From a virus: a stretch of 61,932 bases of DNA. The stretch is taken from positions 1 to 61,932 of the IMG/VR virus record IMGVR_UViG_3300020578_003649. One strand, given 5' to 3'. The notes below the pieces were generated by a model that was given only the letters and a program-made list of their open reading frames with translations, searched no databases and was not told the DNA's origin. Numbering within the stretch: position 1 is the stretch's first letter; every line of letters starts with the position of its first letter. Shown here one piece after another: positions 3,084 to 48,813 of the stretch. The position numbers and the translations under genes are program-made.

Positions 3084-3102
3084 TGTTATCTTTATTTCCT
3101 GT

Positions 3103-3131
3103 ATAATAAGAAATAAAAATCAATTATCCAA
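3103..3131 (-). promoter_or_regulatory. Promoter TTGGAT-N17-TATTAT
   Basis: TTGGAT and TATTAT separated by 17 bp on the minus strand, about 20 bp before the ATG at 3083. It abuts the end of the gene at 3136. Confidence 0.7.
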
Positions 3132-3135
3132 CCTT

Positions 3136-5027: not shown

Positions 5028-5044
5028 AACTCTTTATTTTCTAT

Positions 5045-5073
5045 AATATAAGAAATAATGAGTTAATATCCAA
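5045..5073 (-). promoter_or_regulatory. Promoter TTGGAT-N17-TATATT
   Basis: TTGGAT and TATATT with a 17-bp spacer reading toward the gene at 5027. The same downstream leader (ATAGAAAATAAAGAGTT) is found before the genes at 17110 and, with one base fewer, 15851. Confidence 0.7.
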
Positions 5074-5094
5074 CCGACATGGAAGAAAACTTTG

Positions 5095-15851: not shown

Positions 15852-15867
15852 AACTCTTATTTTCTAT

Positions 15868-15896
15868 ATTATAAGAAATTAAATTCAAGTATCCAA
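15868..15896 (-). promoter_or_regulatory. Promoter TTGGAT-N17-TATAAT before the VWA gene
   Basis: Perfect hexamers and a 17-bp spacer, with leader ATAGAAAATAAGAGTT running into the ATG at 15851. Confidence 0.8.
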
Positions 15897-15905
15897 CCTG
15901 TACAG

Positions 15906-17110: not shown

Positions 17111-17127
17111 AACTCTTTATTTTCTAT

Positions 17128-17156
17128 ATTATATGAAATAAGAGTTAAGAATCCAA
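17128..17156 (-). promoter_or_regulatory. Promoter TTGGAT-N17-TATAAT before the MoxR gene
   Basis: Exact hexamers, 17-bp spacer. The -35 and part of the spacer lie inside the end of the 41-aa gene. Confidence 0.8.
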
Positions 17157-17270
17157 TCTTTCGTCAACTTTTTTATGTTTCTTTTTGCGTGTATATGATT
17201 TTTTGTTCTTATGCACCACAGGCCGCGTTGCCTGCCAAATTTCCTGCATAGTTACTTCAATCTTTTCCAT
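17145..17270 (-). CDS. Small basic protein, 41 aa
   Basis: Reads MEKIEVTMQEIWQATRPVVH..., ending in a lysine-dense segment (KNKKSYTRKKKHKKVDERLD). Similar short basic proteins with a TRPV/RKKK layout are frequent in T4-like marine phages, but I know no function. The start has a neighbouring ATG context after the cargo gene at 17307. Confidence 0.5.
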   Translation of the reverse strand: MEKIEVTMQEIWQATRPVVHKNKKSYTRKKKHKKVDERLDS

Positions 17271-17306: not shown

Positions 17307-18224
17307 TTACCACTTACGGCAAGACCAATATCTTGCAGATGTTCTGTCTTTGGCAGTATGACAACGGTGTCTTGCTCTAAACGAACGTCTACGTGCTGGA
17401 TCGCTCTTACGTATTCTCATATTAGGGTCGCCGAAGTTAACCTTTACAACGTTGCCTTTAGCATTTTTAACGTAGACTTTGAATTTCTTAACATCGCCGC
17501 GCATTGGTTTACCTAATTGTACTTTGCGTCCTTGATATTCTGCTTCTGTAATTACATCAAATTTACCTGCTTTGATGTCTTCCATCATTGCAATTGCACA
17601 TTCTGTACAGATTGACATTTCTTCCATATTTTCCTTTTTCATTCTTCCGCGTTTCATGTTAAGATTCCATTGAGCCATTTTTTGTCGTTCGCCTGTGGAA
17701 TTTTTTGCAATTTTTTCTAATTGCGAAATTGACATTTCTTGACTCACTCCAACTCGTTTAGATATTCCTTTACGCCCCGGATTCTTACCATCAGCAAAAT
17801 TTTCTTCTATTTCTTCATTCTTAGATTTTTTACCCCAATTCTTTGCACCTTTTTTTCTACAAGCTGAAAGTGCTAATGAACCATATGCCGACGGCCATGT
17901 ACCGCCATCGCGAGTATAACGAGCTTTTACTTTGCGATAACAAGCATCTCGTTTTGCTTTTTTCTCTTCATCAATAACAGTTTCAGCTTTTGGAGTACGT
18001 TTACCCATTCCAACTCTACGTTTTTGAGCAACTAATGCATCTTTTTCTTTTTTATCAAATGAGCTCCAAGTTTTCGGAGTGTCTGAAGAAACTTTTTTGC
18101 TAGGTCGACATTTCTTTACACCTTTAGTTTTGTCATTGCCGCAAGGTCTACCATGTTGGTCTACCCATTTTTCTTTAACCCAACGACGTAAATCTTCATT
18201 CATCAAATTTTGAAGTTTAATCAT
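17307..18224 (-). CDS. Basic virion-type protein with capsid-targeting-like leader, 305 aa
   Basis: The start at 18224 is fixed by a strong AGGAGG (18229-18234) and an ATGA overlap. The N-terminus MIKLQNLMNE matches the T4 capsid-targeting pattern, cut after (L/M/I)-x-Glu. Three segments follow: a DUF5872-like block (LRRWVKEKWVDQHGRPCG), a Cys/Lys-rich block (ACYRKVKARYTRDGGTWPSA...ALSACRKKGAKNWG), and a C-terminal block (VNFGDPNMRIRKSDPARRRS...CHTAKDRTSARYWSCRKW) familiar from marine phage structural proteins. The basic charge fits packaging with DNA. Likely an internal or structural virion protein. Confidence 0.7.
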   Translation of the reverse strand: MIKLQNLMNEDLRRWVKEKWVDQHGRPCGNDKTKGVKKCRPSKKVSSDTPKTWSSFDKKEKDALVAQKRRVGMGKRTPKAETVIDEEKKAKRDACYRKVKARYTRDGGTWPSAYGSLALSACRKKGAKNWGKKSKNEEIEENFADGKNPGRKGISKRVGVSQEMSISQLEKIAKNSTGERQKMAQWNLNMKRGRMKKENMEEMSICTECAIAMMEDIKAGKFDVITEAEYQGRKVQLGKPMRGDVKKFKVYVKNAKGNVVKVNFGDPNMRIRKSDPARRRSFRARHRCHTAKDRTSARYWSCRKW

Positions 18225-18973
18225 TGTACCTCCTGTCGAATTCCTAATTGTGGAATACGTTTTTTCCATACTGATAAAATTTTTGTTTTATCTTCCGGAG
18301 TTATTGATTTGTTATTCACCCATATATCTAAATAATCGTTAACAACTTTAGAAAATGGAGTTCTTGTTTTTTTAGCTCGTAAATATAAACCTTGAATCAT
18401 TGCATCTATTTCTTTAGGCAATGTAAAATATCGAGCTGGGGGCAATGCGCCTGCTTCTATTTTAGATCGAACAGCTTGGTCTGATGGAATAAATTTACTA
18501 TCAATTGTATTCCACCCCGATTGTGTTATATGTTCAATTTCATGACGAAGCGTGTCTCGCAAATCCATTGCGACTTCTGATAATAACTTAGGATATTCTG
18601 CAGGATCCATTTTGAAACGAATTTCAATAAGCGGCAATTCATCAGAGTGTCGTTTTGTATTATTATACGCATCACCTCCTACATGTAAGTCATTGTAACC
18701 TTCAATCCATTGAATTTTTAATTCTAAATAAAATTCAACCGGGATATCTGTATTTTCTACTTCTTCAAAATATATGTTATCAAATGCAGCCGGATCTTCT
18801 ATATTGGGTACTGGTTCGCCTTGTTTAAAATAAATTTTTTCGCCGCCGAAGAAACCTTCCGGATCATCTTTTGATGCAAAACTATCTTTAATTACATGTA
18901 GCAAAGTTTTTGATAGTTTAGTAACTAATCCATCATAACGGCCTTCTGCAATTAATTTTTTTAATGATATCAT
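18221..18973 (-). CDS. Putative zinc metalloprotease cargo protein, 250 aa
   Basis: Starts MISLKKLIAEGRYDGL, a capsid-targeting-like leader with an Ile-Ala-Glu cleavage site. In the middle the sequence DTLRHEIEHITQSGWN holds an HExxH zincin motif (His-Glu-Ile-Glu-His). No downstream third ligand can be assigned. Overlaps both neighbours by 4 bp (ATGA), forming an operon with the 679-aa and 305-aa proteins. Interpretation: a peptidase packaged in the head. The protease call rests on one short motif. Confidence 0.6.
   Translation of the reverse strand: MISLKKLIAEGRYDGLVTKLSKTLLHVIKDSFASKDDPEGFFGGEKIYFKQGEPVPNIEDPAAFDNIYFEEVENTDIPVEFYLELKIQWIEGYNDLHVGGDAYNNTKRHSDELPLIEIRFKMDPAEYPKLLSEVAMDLRDTLRHEIEHITQSGWNTIDSKFIPSDQAVRSKIEAGALPPARYFTLPKEIDAMIQGLYLRAKKTRTPFSKVVNDYLDIWVNNKSITPEDKTKILSVWKKRIPQLGIRQEVQ
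18229..18234 (-). promoter_or_regulatory. Strong Shine-Dalgarno AGGAGG
   Basis: A full AGGAGG four bases before the ATG at 18224, embedded in the last codons of the upstream gene. It decides the start of the 305-aa protein against the longer reading to 18269. Confidence 0.75.
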
Positions 18974-21009
18974 AATAAATCTTTTAGTTTAATAACACCG
19001 TCAGCTATATTTTTCATTTTAAGTATTTCACTTTTATTTGATCGCAATTGTTTTACTATCTGAGATACTAGTTGTTTATATTGTTTCGGAGAATTTGCAT
19101 GCAACGTATTAAATAATGTCTCCGTAGATCGATTTGTACCAAATTGTGACGTAGTTTTACTAAAAAGTAATTTCCGAACATCATTAGTAAAATACTTTGA
19201 ATTGTCTGTTGTAAAATATTTAATTGCATCATCTAAAACTTGCAAAGTTTTTTTCTTACCTGCAGTTTTAGCTAATTTATTTGTTCCATATACAATTTGT
19301 TCTAATGCCTGTGGCCTAAGTGCACTTTGTTCAAAATCATGAAAATAATAGTTTTTAAACCAATTTTTTGTTGGATTTTTAGCATCTGGTTGGAATGTCC
19401 AACGCATCCCCGCGCGCGGATCATATGATACATTTAATTTTTTACTTTGCGTAATAGCAGGATCTTTTATGTGGGCTAATTCGTGAGTTAATACACTTTT
19501 GAATTGTTGTTTATTAATTGTACCAGATTTAGTCATAAATCTTTCAGGTACCATATATATTTCGCCAGCATCGGTTGCCCAACCGCGTGATGTTTTCTCG
19601 CCGAGAGTTTCAGCCCTAGATAAAGTTACCATATGTACTTTAACATCTCGTGTTATCATACGGGGTTGGCCTGGCAGAATTTTAGTATGTTTTTGTCCTA
19701 TATTTGTTGGACTAGGAAATTCATATCTAGCAGCCATTGGTGCTCGTACATTTGCATTTTTTATGTTATATGTTTTAAAATATATTTCATACCAATTTTC
19801 TGGCGAGCCTTTTTGACTTAATTTAAATACATCATCTGCAATTTGATCTAAACTTTGTAATTCTGTAGGCGAAAATTTAATTCCAGCAGTGATGCCTAAG
19901 CCTTGCGCAGCAAATTTCTTTTCAGCCATTTGTTTTATATCTTGGTAAGTATATTTACCATTAAATATTCCAGATTGTACAGACTGCCATTCTTCAGGTG
20001 TTAACGATTTTTTATATGCTTGAAGTTTTGGATCTTTAAGAATAGCTTTCCATGTTTCAGCAGGTGTTTTTACTGAATCATATAAAAACTTTTCATGTTG
20101 TTGAAATTGTCTAATTAGATTTGCTTCGTCATCCGGTAAAGATGCCAATTCTTTCTCAGTAATACTTTTAAAGGATCCTGTTTTGTTAAAACTTTTAAAT
20201 TTTGAAATCTTTGCACCTAATTTTGCTAACGCTGCCCTTTTAAATTTTTGTACTGCAGGAATTCTTTGTACAACACGACTAATAAATGGTAATGCTGCAA
20301 AAAATGCAGAAACGCCGGCTCCAAATTTATTTCCTTCATCCCAATAAAGTTTTGCATCAGCTGTCATGGCTAAACTAGCTAAGCCAATGCCAACCGGGCC
20401 AGCAAAATAAAGTAATGATGCTGCATTTTCAATTCCAGCGTGCATTTCATGAGATTTAAATGCTGATAATAAATTAGTTGTATATGGCGCGTACAACGCC
20501 GGGTCCATTAACATTTTATACAACAAATCTTTTTTTATTGAATTTTTTTTCGATGCCCAATTGTTAAATAACATTTGCAATGTCTGAGCTTCAGATGGTC
20601 TTCGGCTACTACTAGGAACCATTCCTGCAGCGCCCGGGCGCCGATAACTAATCTCTTCGATTAAGTCTTCCCAAGTAAAAACTTTCTTAACTGTCCAGAA
20701 CCAATCTTTTTGAGGTAATACTTTTACTAAATGTTCAGCTACTTTATATAAGTCTCTGAAATCCATGAATTCGTGGAGATATTCTCCTAATCCACGATTA
20801 CCTGTTAATTTCTGCAATTCTCTATTAACTAGTTTATATTGTTCAATTGATAATATTTGTTTTATAGAGCTTAATGCTCCCTTTTCATTATCTAAAAAAA
20901 TACCTTTTGAATCATATATTTGTTGTGCTAGTTTTTTCGCAGCTTCTTGCTTTACTTGTTGTTGAGATTTGAATTTTTGTTCATCGAGTAAATTTACTAG
21001 CTGTATCAT
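18970..21009 (-). CDS. Large internal virion-type protein with HExxH motif, 679 aa
   Basis: I start at 21009 (MIQLVNLLDEQKF); the longer reading begins at a GTG. The leader matches the T4 Alt-type targeting sequence, with a predicted cut after Leu-Asp-Glu. A hydrophobic segment follows at about residues 205-260 (LLYFAGPVGIGLASLAMTAD, AGVSAFFAALPF), then a helical region. Late in the protein FKSVLTHELAHIKDPA is an HExxH zincin signature. A large protein with both a membrane-active stretch and a peptidase motif fits an injected protein. An ATATTTAT element (21014-21021) directly precedes the start. Confidence 0.65.
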   Translation of the reverse strand: MIQLVNLLDEQKFKSQQQVKQEAAKKLAQQIYDSKGIFLDNEKGALSSIKQILSIEQYKLVNRELQKLTGNRGLGEYLHEFMDFRDLYKVAEHLVKVLPQKDWFWTVKKVFTWEDLIEEISYRRPGAAGMVPSSSRRPSEAQTLQMLFNNWASKKNSIKKDLLYKMLMDPALYAPYTTNLLSAFKSHEMHAGIENAASLLYFAGPVGIGLASLAMTADAKLYWDEGNKFGAGVSAFFAALPFISRVVQRIPAVQKFKRAALAKLGAKISKFKSFNKTGSFKSITEKELASLPDDEANLIRQFQQHEKFLYDSVKTPAETWKAILKDPKLQAYKKSLTPEEWQSVQSGIFNGKYTYQDIKQMAEKKFAAQGLGITAGIKFSPTELQSLDQIADDVFKLSQKGSPENWYEIYFKTYNIKNANVRAPMAARYEFPSPTNIGQKHTKILPGQPRMITRDVKVHMVTLSRAETLGEKTSRGWATDAGEIYMVPERFMTKSGTINKQQFKSVLTHELAHIKDPAITQSKKLNVSYDPRAGMRWTFQPDAKNPTKNWFKNYYFHDFEQSALRPQALEQIVYGTNKLAKTAGKKKTLQVLDDAIKYFTTDNSKYFTNDVRKLLFSKTTSQFGTNRSTETLFNTLHANSPKQYKQLVSQIVKQLRSNKSEILKMKNIADGVIKLKDLL

Positions 21010-21013
21010 ATTA

Positions 21014-21021
21014 ATAAATAT
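21014..21021 (-). promoter_or_regulatory. ATATTTAT candidate late-promoter element
   Basis: ATATTTATTAATATG: the element runs straight into the start codon of the 679-aa gene, leaving little room for a leader, so it may alternatively mark an RNA-processing or initiation site. Confidence 0.35.
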
Positions 21022-21575
21022 CACTCAAGTAAATTGTAATTCCAATATTTTTCTTTTTCTTCATTATACGGATTACCTGTTTGTTGATAATAACAATTTA
21101 GACAAAGCATTTGTAAATTTGCAACAACGTGATTAGTTTCGTCACCATCTAGATGATCTAGTTTCAATGGCACTGTATCATCTGTTATTCTTCGTTCTGA
21201 ATAACCACAACTTGCACATTCTTCTTTAAAGATTCCTAATGCCAATAATCTATTTCGAAGTTTCCAAGAAGGATAGTTAGGATGCTTACCTGACAATATA
21301 TTATCAATAGAGTAGATACCTTTTGATGCTTTCTGAACATCTTTAGGGATACCTACTCCAAATTGATTTTTATGTAGCTCATATAATGTTTTACCAGTAT
21401 CTCGATCTGTATATAATCGAGCATACTTTTTATAAGTAGTAAATGATACTTTAAGAAAGCGAGCGGCTTCTGCATTAGACTTTGTATTTTCCATTGCATA
21501 ACGAATTTCACTTTCTGGTATATCTAAAGCAGTTTTGCCTATACCATATACATACTTATATTGTTTATCTGCCAT
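21021..21575 (-). CDS. HNH endonuclease-like protein, 184 aa
   Basis: N-terminal half looks like a helix-turn-helix DNA reader (SNAEAARFLKVSFTTYKKYARLY). The C-terminal half has a zinc/HNH core: CASCGYSERR, then LKLDHLDGDETNHVVANLQM, then LCLNCYYQ (two CxxC pairs flanking a D-H-L-D-G-D/N-H core). Likely a free-standing homing endonuclease or DNA-nicking enzyme. It opens a five-gene insert, driven by the promoter at 22580, that splits the cargo block. Confidence 0.8.
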   Translation of the reverse strand: MADKQYKYVYGIGKTALDIPESEIRYAMENTKSNAEAARFLKVSFTTYKKYARLYTDRDTGKTLYELHKNQFGVGIPKDVQKASKGIYSIDNILSGKHPNYPSWKLRNRLLALGIFKEECASCGYSERRITDDTVPLKLDHLDGDETNHVVANLQMLCLNCYYQQTGNPYNEEKEKYWNYNLLE

Positions 21576-21961
21576 TAATAAACTCCATGTTTACGAAGCT
21601 CTGACACAGCATCGCGAGGCATCGTTTTTGTATCATACATTTCTAAAAGCATTGATTTTAATTTAATTGCTTGATCATTAAAAAATGATGAATGCACTTT
21701 AGATTGTTTTTGAACTTCAGCAATCCAAAATGAATAAACTGGAAATGCATCATCAAATCTATCAGCATCGGTTCGATTCTCCCAATATTCAATTTGATCT
21801 TTCAATGGCCACATATGAATTGGAAGATCTGGATCTTTTCTGATACCGGGTTTACGTACTAAATGTTTTTCTTTATTCATATTCTTTGATATGAATTTGT
21901 CCATAATGTTAATTGAACGATCCTTCGGCGATTCGCCAGTGTGTGCAGATTTTCTACCCAT
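21575..21961 (-). CDS. Hypothetical protein, 128 aa
   Basis: Basic N-terminus (MGRKSAHTGESPKDRSINIM) then a helical, aromatic body (DQIEYWENRTDADRFDDAFP...). I see no known domain. It abuts the HNH gene (1-bp overlap), so the two are probably made together. Confidence 0.6.
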   Translation of the reverse strand: MGRKSAHTGESPKDRSINIMDKFISKNMNKEKHLVRKPGIRKDPDLPIHMWPLKDQIEYWENRTDADRFDDAFPVYSFWIAEVQKQSKVHSSFFNDQAIKLKSMLLEMYDTKTMPRDAVSELRKHGVY

Positions 21962-22139
21962 TTGTTTTTATTTTATTTGTTAGTATAACTATTTTACGCC
22001 ATGCATCTTCTGCTGCATAGATATATTTTTTAAAATTTATGATGTCTCTTGATTCGCGGGCTTTGTCAGCTCGTTTCATATTTCTATGATATGTTGCATG
22101 TAACAACCCAATTTTTATTTTTATAATAAATGTAATCAT
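21954..22139 (-). CDS. Hypothetical small protein, 61 aa
   Basis: Reads MITFIIKIKIGLLHATYHRN..., a hydrophobic start followed by a charged helix (ADKARESRDIINFKKYIYAA). Possibly membrane-peripheral. Overlaps the ClpS-like gene by 4 bp and the 128-aa gene by 8 bp. Confidence 0.5.
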   Translation of the reverse strand: MITFIIKIKIGLLHATYHRNMKRADKARESRDIINFKKYIYAAEDAWRKIVILTNKIKTNG

Positions 22140-22402
22140 TTTACTTGTTTTTTAACTATAGTTTTCAATTTACATTGATTAAGTATATTACTAACATGCA
22201 TACATTCTTCATAACTATCTGCGTATATCGCACACAGTTTTGCTTGATCAACTATTATTGCACATTGATATGCTTGCAATTCATTAAAATCACAGTATGA
22301 CATCAAACAATCTACAACATGATCAAATGTAATTCGATCATCATTGTATAAGACTACTTCATGAAGTCCTTTGTTAGATTTTTTGTAAACTTTCTTTGAC
22401 AT
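22136..22402 (-). CDS. clpS: ClpS-like Clp protease adaptor, 88 aa
   Basis: ClpS hands N-degron substrates to ClpAP. Blocks line up with bacterial ClpS in order: HEVVLYNDD (residues 14-22, the NDD lining the N-degron pocket), then ITFDHVVDCLMSYCDFNELQ, then AYQCAIIVDQAKLCAIYADS, then the last strand LKTIVKKQ. Bacterial ClpS keeps a His that contacts the substrate amino group (the first His of AVHYQG in E. coli); here the aligned residue is Asp (IIVDQAK). It may therefore redirect or block the host ClpS/ClpA rather than copy it. It sits in a small insert driven by a TTGGAT promoter inside a virion-gene block. Confidence 0.75.
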   Translation of the reverse strand: MSKKVYKKSNKGLHEVVLYNDDRITFDHVVDCLMSYCDFNELQAYQCAIIVDQAKLCAIYADSYEECMHVSNILNQCKLKTIVKKQVK

Positions 22403-22574
22403 CTCTAATTATTACACATTGTTCAAACAATTCGCGATCTTCTGCAAAACGCAATGATTCGTTTAAAAATTTCATTTTACGTTCAGTATCCCAATATTCA
22501 GGCCAATCCCATTTATCAGTAGCCATTACGTTGATAGAATCAACAAATAAACGTTCTATGAAATTATGATCCAT
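22374..22574 (-). CDS. Hypothetical protein, 66 aa
   Basis: MDHNFIERLFVDSINVMATD..., acidic and helical. Unknown. First gene after the promoter at 22580-22608; its last 29 bp overlap the ClpS-like gene. Confidence 0.55.
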   Translation of the reverse strand: MDHNFIERLFVDSINVMATDKWDWPEYWDTERKMKFLNESLRFAEDRELFEQCVIIRDVKESLQKI

Positions 22575-22579
22575 AACTT

Positions 22580-22608
22580 ATTATATGAAAAATTAAATAT
22601 CAATCCAA
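22580..22608 (-). promoter_or_regulatory. Promoter TTGGAT-N17-TATAAT before the HNH/ClpS insert
   Basis: TTGGAT and TATAAT, 17-bp spacer, with the -35 in the last codons of the HAD-like gene. It gives the five inserted genes a different expression class from the cargo genes around them. Confidence 0.75.
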
Positions 22609-23043
22609 ATCAAAATATTTTTTTAATTGATTGATTGTATCTTGTACATTATTAGGATTATGTTTAATACCAATACCTTTTTTCATTTCCCACGCATTAA
22701 TATTATCTAAACTGTCATCAATAAGTATAGATTTTGGATTTGCATAAATATTTTTACTAATACCGGTTGCTACAAATTTGACATCAGGTGTTGGTTTTAA
22801 GTATTGATTAATTTGATCTCGTTTAGTCTTTTCATTGGCAACTCGATTTGATGTACCTACTGCTGAAAGTATTATTGGATCTAAATTTTTTATTTTATCC
22901 CAAAGTGCTGCGCCAATATACTCAGTTTTATTTCCATTACCTCCTACATCGGCACTCATTTTTTTAAATAACACATCACCCATATCAACATATAATGTAT
23001 ATGTAGCTAATTCTTCATTTAATAAAGATTTTAAACGTATCAT
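22600..23043 (-). CDS. HAD-like phosphatase/nucleotidase with capsid-targeting-like leader, 147 aa
   Basis: The leader MIRLKSLLNE is followed directly by the HAD core: motif I in TLYVDMGDVLFKK (Asp-x-x-Asp-Val-Leu), motif II LSAVGTSN, and motif IV KSILIDDSLDNINAW, with a lysine between. Size and order fit small 5'-nucleotidase-like HADs. In a typical HAD the first motif reads DxDGVL; here it is DMGDVL, with the second acid one place later. If cleaved after Leu-Asn-Glu the enzyme would begin its fold at once. Substrate unknown. Confidence 0.7.
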   Translation of the reverse strand: MIRLKSLLNEELATYTLYVDMGDVLFKKMSADVGGNGNKTEYIGAALWDKIKNLDPIILSAVGTSNRVANEKTKRDQINQYLKPTPDVKFVATGISKNIYANPKSILIDDSLDNINAWEMKKGIGIKHNPNNVQDTINQLKKYFDLD

Positions 23044-23054
23044 ATTATTACTTA

Positions 23055-23936
23055 TTATGTAATTACTAACTTAAGATCATGGTCTAAAGAAGAATCACTA
23101 GTATTTATCATTAAAATATATGTACCTGGCGACGCCGGCGCTTCAAATTTTAATATTCCTTGTTGTACATTATCCCAATGATGCTCATCAACCATTTGGC
23201 CAAACAATTTATAAATTTTTATATCAATTGAATCAATTGGTAATATGTTAGATGATACTTTTATTGTAATTGCATCTCCAGGCTTTGCTGGATTCGGATA
23301 CATAGTATAATTAGAATCTGATTTTTTATTAGATGTATTATCTTTTGCTGTAGTTGTATTAGATGATACATTACTTTTTATAAATTTGTCAATCTTTAAA
23401 GCATTATCGATACGTTGTTGTTTGCTGCCTGGTATTGGTTTAAAAACATTATCCATTAAATTTGCAGCACTAGCTGCAATATCTCCAGATACTATACTAC
23501 GATCATATTTTTTAACATATTCTTTTGATAAACCTTTATATGTACCATCTTCTTGTTTGTAATACATCAATGCTTTATCAATACCAGGTATTGGTTTGTC
23601 GTACCATAAGTAACCATTTTTTAATTCACATTTCATGAAATCTAATTGAGTTGATAATGCACTTTTAGATTTTCCAATATGTTTTGCAAATGCAGTTAAT
23701 GCTTGTTTACGTCCATAGCCCGGATCCCATTGACATAATCCATAACCGCCGGTACCGCCTGCTTCAGTGGTATCTGGATCGCAACCCGATTCATGTGATA
23801 TGTTACCAGCTAATGCTACCGCACCAGTATAACTAAAACCGCGGGCTTGTAAACCTTTTACAATTTCTTTAGCTTTTTCTAGTTCGCCAGGAGCATTTAG
23901 ATCAAATTCTAACAATAAAGATTTAAGGCGTATCAT
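23055..23936 (-). CDS. Phage lysozyme with a T9SS type-A-like C-terminal domain, 293 aa
   Basis: Three parts are visible. Residues 1-10 (MIRLKSLLLE) are a capsid-targeting-like leader. Residues 20-150 match the phage tail lysozyme family (YTGAVALAGNISHESGCDPD, then GGYGLCQWDPGYGRKQA), which cuts peptidoglycan; Glu of HESG is the likely catalytic residue. After a Thr/Asn-rich linker, residues 212-293 resemble a Por/T9SS sorting domain: YPNPAKPGDAITIKV, IKIYKLFGQMVDE, and SPGTYILMIN...LVIT. There is no signal peptide, so the domain cannot use T9SS normally and may act as a binding beta-sandwich. Cut and packaged, it would be an entry lysozyme. Confidence 0.8.
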   Translation of the reverse strand: MIRLKSLLLEFDLNAPGELEKAKEIVKGLQARGFSYTGAVALAGNISHESGCDPDTTEAGGTGGYGLCQWDPGYGRKQALTAFAKHIGKSKSALSTQLDFMKCELKNGYLWYDKPIPGIDKALMYYKQEDGTYKGLSKEYVKKYDRSIVSGDIAASAANLMDNVFKPIPGSKQQRIDNALKIDKFIKSNVSSNTTTAKDNTSNKKSDSNYTMYPNPAKPGDAITIKVSSNILPIDSIDIKIYKLFGQMVDEHHWDNVQQGILKFEAPASPGTYILMINTSDSSLDHDLKLVIT

Positions 23937-24268
23937 TATTTGCCTTTTGTCTCACGAATAATCAATTCACCTAAAACTTCTAATCGGCCTACTTCTCTTT
24001 GAAACTCAATTTGTGTCATGGATGTAGATATTTTTTTATATGTAACATCATATTCTTTTTTAGCTTCATCTAAATTAAATTTTCCAGCAGCTGCTTTTTT
24101 ATAATATGGAAGTTTAACTTTGAAATGATGCCATGTTAAAAGAGCTAAGCCTCCTTTTTTCTTTGCATTGTTAACAATCTTCTCAGCACCAGCTTCTCTA
24201 GTGTCAGCAAATGTTTCAAAAGTTTCTTTTTTATCTTTTGATTCAAAAAGTAAATTCATTAGTTTCAT
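23936..24268 (-). CDS. Candidate capsid cargo protein, 110 aa
   Basis: MKLMNLLFESKDKKETFETF: the leader ends in Leu-Phe-Glu, fitting (L/I)-x-Glu processing. The rest is lysine-rich and helical (KIVNNAKKKGGLALLTWHHF) without a domain I know. It sits directly upstream of the lysozyme (1-bp overlap) and after an ATATTTATTAAT element at 24273-24280. Probably an internal head protein. Confidence 0.55.
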   Translation of the reverse strand: MKLMNLLFESKDKKETFETFADTREAGAEKIVNNAKKKGGLALLTWHHFKVKLPYYKKAAAGKFNLDEAKKEYDVTYKKISTSMTQIEFQREVGRLEVLGELIIRETKGK

Positions 24269-24281: not shown

Positions 24282-24683
24282 TTACCACATTTCTTCTTGA
24301 GTATATATACAAACTATTTCTTCATCCCGTTCAATATCGCGGATTGCTACAAATTCATCTAAAGTTAAATCGTGAATAACATTTGGAGAATCAGAATGAT
24401 TTACAAAATATGCTAAATTAATATTATTTGGTGTACGAGATAAAAATATTCCGTCAGATGTAGAATTACACATTGTATTTAAATATGATTTTACATCTTC
24501 ATGCAAACCTGAAAGTTCTGTCCACTGAATAAATATAGTATCAGCAGTAACATCATGTAGTAATACATCTCCTTTTCTTATCGGACGTATTGCAAATAAA
24601 CCAACTCCAGAGCAAACCTTAGATGGTTTCAAACGAAGATTAGTATTATGAAGTATGTTTTGAATTATTTCCCGTTTCGTCAT
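24282..24683 (-). CDS. SET-domain protein, putative lysine methyltransferase, 133 aa
   Basis: The SET core appears in order: GVGLFAIRPIRKGDVLL (residues 26-42), the cofactor/substrate pseudoknot NLAYFVNHSDSPNV (Asn95-His96), a beta segment with AIRDIERDEEIVCIY, and Tyr127 at the expected catalytic end. SET proteins move a methyl group from S-adenosylmethionine to lysine. The domain is compact and lacks pre- and post-SET cysteines. It overlaps the upstream gene by 38 bp. Targets could be host or virion proteins; unknown. Confidence 0.85.
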   Translation of the reverse strand: MTKREIIQNILHNTNLRLKPSKVCSGVGLFAIRPIRKGDVLLHDVTADTIFIQWTELSGLHEDVKSYLNTMCNSTSDGIFLSRTPNNINLAYFVNHSDSPNVIHDLTLDEFVAIRDIERDEEIVCIYTQEEMW

Positions 24684-48549: not shown

Positions 48550-48567
48550 TTTCTTATATTTTTCTAT

Positions 48568-48596
48568 ATTATAAAAAATTATTTTTGTGAATCCAA
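48568..48596 (-). promoter_or_regulatory. Promoter TTGGAT-N17-TATAAT
   Basis: Exact hexamers with a 17-bp spacer, leading into the acidic protein at 48549. Confidence 0.8.
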
Positions 48597-48597
48597 A

Positions 48598-48813
48598 TTA
48601 TTTGACTGAATCTCTATAATAATGTTGTTGCTCGATTAGATATATATCGATTAAATCTTTAGTTTTTTGCAAATCTTGTTCAAATAAACCCTTATGTCGA
48701 CATCTTACAATGCGTTTAATAATATCAAATTCATATGCATTCAACCCCCAATCTTTTGCAAATTTATATAAACTCTCGTTACCTTTGTAGTGTTTTTGTG
48801 TATTTACGCTCAC
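48598..48813 (-). CDS. DUF3310-like small protein, 71 aa
   Basis: KHYKGNESLYKFAKDWGLNA...IIKRIVRCRHKGLFEQDL + QKTKDLIDIY matches the pattern of DUF3310 (HY...GN..KY..R..HK...DL.KA...L), sometimes called nucleotide kinase-like. Function not established. Overlaps the clamp-loader small subunit by 4 bp. Confidence 0.6.
   Translation of the reverse strand: MSVNTQKHYKGNESLYKFAKDWGLNAYEFDIIKRIVRCRHKGLFEQDLQKTKDLIDIYLIEQQHYYRDSVK

Follow-up and report, generated by a model that had tools for sequence, protein, structure and literature searches.

Six genes of an uncultivated T4-superfamily phage encode proteins that share the N-terminal leader M-(I/K)-x-L-x-x-L-(L/I/M)-x-E in front of wholly different bodies, and very probably, judging from sequence comparison, this leader is a capsid-targeting sequence of the T4 type, whose cargo would be packaged into the head, cut there, ejected with the DNA and act in the host. 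The support for this reading is comparative but strong. With less confidence, we favor the wider view that a single interchangeable N-terminal tag gives a large uncultivated lineage of the T4 superfamily a general loading system for bringing dozens of protein types into the host along with the genome.

Leaders and Cargo in the Window

The window, i.e., the whole stretch of DNA that was analyzed, is a 61.9-kb IMG/VR fragment of a T4-superfamily phage with a gp43-type DNA polymerase, a gp44-type clamp loader and a large glycan-synthesis block; no head genes were found in this fragment. The long contig closest to it, referred to as G001, has a polymerase that is 86% identical. The six leader genes cluster at 17.3–24.3 kb, all on the minus strand, with starts at 18224, 18973, 21009, 23043, 23936 and 24268 as given in the preliminary description, and their bodies, which it had called unrelated, indeed have no detectable similarity to each other. 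Genes outside annotated phages were called by a simple longest-ORF procedure; the ORF listing gives longer ORFs with upstream starts at 18269 and 21024, for which the leader starts are 18224 and 21009, and upstream of the ATG at leader start 18224, AGGAGGTACA forms a strong ribosome-binding site. Leader-free genes are interspersed in the cluster, such as an HNH-type gene at 21021-21575, and the gene that adjoins the cluster at 24282-24683 (minus strand), also without a leader, encodes a SET-domain protein (PF00856, 4e-10), the domain being of the lysine-methyltransferase type. The features of the cluster are as follows (a slash marks a putative cut).

18195-18224, minus strand: leader MIKLQNLMNE of a basic two-domain protein; the leader of the G001 orthologue is MIRLVDLLSE
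17307-18194, minus strand: cargo, basic protein with DUF5872 (PF19197, 1.4e-11) and phrog_7595 (6.5e-14)
17544-17552, minus strand: putative second prohead-protease site, I-T-E/A, between the two domains
18944-18973, minus strand: leader MISLKKLIAE; Glu10 invariant in 57 of 57 distinct homologues
18221-18943, minus strand: cargo, HExxH protein (HEIEH); body folded in the AF2 model, residues 1-10 with pLDDT below 50
20980-21009, minus strand: leader MIQLVNLLDE; a homologue in locus L443 starts MIRLKHLLFE
18970-20979, minus strand: cargo, second and larger HExxH protein (HELAH), 669 residues
23014-23043, minus strand: leader MIRLKSLLNE
22600-23013, minus strand: cargo, HAD/5'-deoxyribonucleotidase-like protein (phrog_2643, 6e-12; 37% identical over 99 aa to NT5C of Flavobacterium phage immuto)
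23907-23936, minus strand: leader MIRLKSLLLE
23055-23906, minus strand: cargo, Phage_lysozyme2 lysozyme (PF18013, 2.5e-20) with a C-terminal sorting-domain-like module (PF18962, 4e-5, just below the cut-off)
24242-24268, minus strand: leader MKLMNLLFE, nine residues; the leader of the immuto orthologue is MRLLELLRE
23936-24241, minus strand: cargo, small basic protein of 110 residues, 67% identical to a protein of a cultured Flavobacterium phage

The strict gp21 site, (L/I)-x-E, fits five of the six leaders, the exception being MIKLQNLMNE with Met at P3. In Pfam and PHROG searches, none of the six has homology in its mature part to T4 IPI–IPIII or Alt. The basic two-domain protein is 87% identical overall to its G001 orthologue. 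Its conserved YQGRKV domain is preceded by [LI]xE in 28 of 30 distinct contexts and by the same motif with V in the other two, while the remaining upstream sequence differs; the retention of (I/L)-x-E at this place suggests that the window protein may undergo a second cut at the putative site. A homologue of the DUF5872 protein in cyanophage S-B43 is without the tag, and the domain can therefore occur untagged. For the HELAH protein, Pfam and PHROG searches gave nothing over threshold, and no homologue of the full 679-residue protein (18970-21009) was found in the annotated phage collection. The HAD protein (22600-23043, minus strand) has DMGDV where its immuto homologue has DMDGV, and this displacement of the second catalytic Asp may mean that the enzyme is changed or without activity. 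The C-terminus of the tagged lysozyme (23055-23936) resembles the sorting domain used in type IX secretion by Bacteroidota (PF18962), which is a hint of a Bacteroidota host, as for immuto.

Enrichment of the Leader at Gene Starts

In the window, 6 of 96 gene starts fit the pattern; with residues 2–25 of each start permuted, the average over 20,000 trials was 0.25 and no trial exceeded 3. Nine related genomes or contigs contain 64 fitting starts among 1,414 (4.3 expected), with 2 to 14 per genome or contig, and the pattern is found in them at 4.5% of starts vs. 0.5% of internal methionines (p = 2e-26). When starts are selected only as M(I/V/L)xL, which leaves the tested position 10 out of the selection, 62% of the 68 starts have Glu at position 10, compared with 11% after internal methionines (p = 4e-10). 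The earlier idea that the leader sets a particular group of proteins apart agrees with its distribution: in the relatives it falls on cargo-like proteins and a few false positives, e.g., an exonuclease-like protein starting MNKYQKLFKE, and it is not equally common elsewhere, as other T4-like phages have 0–2 matches each (Syn9, 2; S-CAM1, 0; HTVC008M, 1) and the unrelated phage K has 3 vs. 0.8 expected. Because Syn9, HTVC008M and phage K also show matches, single hits per genome mean little, and the signal is the clade total of 64 together with the conservation in homologues. The few false positives per genome, including one in T4 and those of phage K, are what chance or a gene-calling artefact would produce; as an explanation of the whole pattern, such an origin is scarcely credible given the difference between starts and internal methionines, the conservation of the leader across homologues and the position of 77 of the 83 DNA-level matches listed from IMG/VR, which are at ORF starts.

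Constraint on the Leader and Predicted Structures

Across distinct homologues of the HExxH protein (57) and of a kinase-like protein (53), Glu10 is invariant; the residues at positions 4, 7 and 8 are hydrophobic, and within the leader variation is greatest at positions 6 and 9. Between the DUF5872 protein and its G001 orthologue, the DNA is only 50% identical in the leader and 80% identical in the body, and despite this divergence both leaders keep M1, I2, L4, L7 and E10. In T4, amber-suppressor genetics of IPIII showed that targeting depends mainly on residues 4 and 7 and processing on residues 8 and 10, with Asp10 blocking processing (PMC9026906). The constraint map of the leader, as read from the homologues, is the same as this genetic map; the window leaders and their homologues alike have an N-terminal peptide of about ten residues with critical positions 4, 7, 8 and 10. 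On its sequence features, the leader belongs with the T4 capsid-targeting sequences.

AlphaFold models of the kinase-like and HExxH proteins, built with 31–35 homologues, place the leader outside the well-predicted part. The body of the kinase-like protein has a pLDDT of 89.9, with residues 1–8 below 50, and the model matches kinases (aminoglycoside phosphotransferases, CK2 and RIO) with a probability near 1 and low TM. This tagged kinase-fold protein (L118:6983-7519, with homologues L236-L315) is found in all seven long related contigs and has 53 distinct homologues in IMG/VR. The model of the HExxH protein is moderate (pLDDT 79.8, pTM 0.55; residues 1–10 below pLDDT 50) and has no significant match in the PDB, and its assignment as a candidate metallopeptidase is made from the motif only.

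T4 Control and Prohead Protease of Related Phages

Applied to T4, the same pattern matches 5 of 241 genes, namely those of IPII, IPIII and the vertex protein gp24, together with a 274-residue protein that is presumably gp2 and one false positive that is presumably RNase H. The Alt leader, MELITELFDE, is present in the T4 genome, and gp24 chains of 427 and 417 residues in the PDB are consistent with the loss of ten residues. The likeness of the leader to the T4 targeting peptide in length, hydrophobic pattern and final Glu, from which the preliminary description had started, is borne out by this control and by the conservation in homologues.

The presence of a prohead protease, another point on which the earlier proposal depended, was confirmed in relatives: an S77 protease of the T4 gp21 type scores over the cut-off in 8 of 12 related contigs, among them G001, where two of the window leader proteins also have orthologues. 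The S77 search found none in the window, which is a fragment, and was silent in 14 control genomes too, so that this absence proves nothing. The S77 protease of Microcystis phage Mel-JY01 is recognized by Pfam (6e-30) and matches the T4 gp21 structure 5jbl at 1.4e-18, and immuto has an S77 prohead protease by annotation. Among 19 contigs found through the tag alone, all three with a Gp23 capsid match also have the protease. In relatives a gp22-like acidic protein adjoins gp23, and the N-terminal part of gp23 contains a Glu site immediately ahead of the region with which mature T4 gp23 begins (ISE/ANRTG in Mel-JY01; VKE/S or VKE/A in the clade). With Met at P3 in one of the window leaders and Val there in the clade gp23 site, the specificity of the clade protease would be slightly wider than that of T4. 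The scaffold shows a density of (L/I)-x-E that is mildly raised only (z 1.2 to 2.1), and the argument makes no use of it. Between the prohead protease and scaffold genes of Mel-JY01 (L006:22429-23595) lies a gene for a protein that starts MYEYVEYILE and is a possible Alt analogue; its ADP-ribosyltransferase-likeness, noted by eye, is unsupported, as Pfam and PDB searches gave nothing, and the protein is left out of the argument.

The tag, as MIRLKDLLKE and variants, is also found on a prohead-core-type protein at eight IMG/VR loci among the matches listed. This tagged family is a homologue of the gene that adjoins gp21 in the clade, and in six of the eight loci a protease-like ORF lies about 0.8 kb or less upstream on the same strand. 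It is very unlikely that the tag directs proteins elsewhere, for instance to the membrane or tail tube, and resembles the gp21 site by convergence. The peptide could form an amphipathic helix, and AF2 draws residues 4–9 as helical with low confidence; however, the length is fixed at 9–10 residues, the terminal Glu is invariant, the constrained positions are those of the T4 signal, known T4 substrates fit the same pattern and the tag is on a core-type protein whose gene adjoins that of the protease.

Spread of the Tag and a Cultured Phage

A DNA-level scan of IMG/VR for MI(R/S)LKxLLxE-type starts found at least 83 tag matches in at least 80 loci, in which the tag precedes at least 33 unrelated families; among the matches listed, 78 lie in ORFs that have at least 60 residues or are cut by the contig end, and 77 of these 78 are at the ORF start. 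The tag is thus modular. Of the preliminary description's set of tagged proteins, the six in the window stand, and its restriction to these six does not, with dozens of cargo families in many phages. Recognized cargo includes a GH24-type lysozyme with LysM, Phage_lysozyme2 and a SleB-type cell-wall hydrolase with LysM, as well as a zeta-toxin-like P-loop protein, a putative protease, HEAT repeats, an FMN-reductase-like protein and basic DUF6321 and DUF5872 proteins.

The composition of the cargo bears on what it would do after packaging. In an unlikely alternative, the tag loads cargo into the prohead and is cut off as proposed, and most of the cargo is internal structural or DNA-condensing protein or is used in the tail, and does not act on the host. 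Two of the cargo proteins are basic, the DUF5872 homologue of cyanophage S-B43 is annotated as a structural protein, the core-type protein bears the tag, and lysozymes often sit in tails, so that the tagged lysozymes could be tail components instead. The kinase-fold, deoxyribonucleotidase-like, zeta-toxin-like, cell-wall hydrolase and HExxH cargo, however, has no obvious structural role, and the cargo set varies between relatives, like that of the T-even internal proteins.

Delivery into the host, the reading that we prefer, is directly testable in immuto, a cultured phage with the same tags. MRLLELLRE of immuto is on the orthologue of the window protein at 23936-24268 (67% identical), the protein that starts MISIYNILKE has a glycine-rich motif of kinase-like type, and a further tagged protein starts MIKLIDLLTE; the NT5C nucleotidase starts MGNLADLLLE when read from the second ATG. 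In immuto, the homologue of the HExxH protein forms the C-terminal part of a multidomain protein of 907 residues, a layout that has been called polyvalent (PMC5512222).

Proposed Function and Relation to Known Systems

We propose that proteins bearing the tag are probably packaged and carried into the host together with the DNA, and we infer late expression, core binding, cleavage, packaging and ejection, as well as the job of each cargo, as follows. Cargo with the 9–10-residue N-terminal tag would be made late in infection, hydrophobic residues 4 and 7 of the tag would bind the prohead scaffold core, and the growing head would enclose the core-bound cargo. The S77 prohead protease would then cut after Glu10 at (L/I)-x-E (positions 8–10) and free the mature proteins inside the head, which may be ejected with the DNA and be active at once in the new host, where their targets may include the cell wall, nucleotides and host proteins. 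Late-promoter-like NATAAATA elements are found upstream of 0 of 20 leader genes vs. 40 of 694 other genes, and NATAAATA may not be the late promoter of the clade.

T-even internal proteins are diverse proteins that have the targeting sequence alone in common (Rao and Black, PMC3012670), and one conserved tag on diverse cargo is therefore already known; new here are the lineage, the consensus and the number and enzymatic range of the cargo. T4 IPI–IPIII and Alt share with the proteins described here a 10-residue N-terminal peptide with hydrophobic or aromatic residues at positions 4, 7 and 8, Glu10 and an (L/I)-x-E site, followed by unrelated mature proteins (PMC9026906, PMC3012670). The consensus in this uncultivated clade is M-I-(R/K/S)-(L/M)-K-x-L-(L/I)-x-E, compared with MKTYQEFIAE in T4, and its cargo families are many more and many of them enzyme-like. 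T4 gp24 (MAKINELLRE) and the core proteins gp21, gp22 and gp67 are head proteins cut after Glu at the same motif; in relatives, the core-type protein beside the protease carries the tag, whereas gp24 is a shell protein and not cargo. Ejection proteins of the giant phages phiKZ and SPN3US are likewise head proteins cut after Glu by a gp21-related protease, but mostly have long propeptides and S/A-x-E or A-x-E motifs (PMC5694885). Polyvalent proteins of phages and plasmids, whose metallopeptidase, lysozyme and nucleotide-enzyme domains have been proposed to be packaged and injected (PMC5512222), combine several effector domains per polypeptide, whereas the domains here are mostly encoded by separate genes with one tag each, and among the six only the protein at 17307-18224 is a clear two-domain fusion. 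The literature covered, which includes few subscription journals, yielded no account of this tag in phages from the environment.

Because the phage proteins that are injected have no homology in common, finding them is difficult. If the general loading system is real, the types loaded would include many enzymes and a conserved kinase-fold protein, and the sequence itself would reveal injected effectors; with a ten-residue tag as the predictor, the first proteins to act on the host could be catalogued for many uncultivated T4-superfamily phages. The T4 targeting rule, which concerns residues 4, 7, 8 and 10, would then hold far outside the T-even phages.

Repeats in the Window

A 43-nt repeat at 1566-1608, 3092-3134, 5034-5076, 15857-15899, 17117-17159 and 48557-48599 lies upstream of several minus-strand genes, none of them a leader gene. 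It contains TTGGAT and TATAAT-like boxes and looks like a shared promoter class. At 1167-1328 there is a tandem repeat of 54 nt, and CTAAAAATA repeats form a field at 1700-2027.
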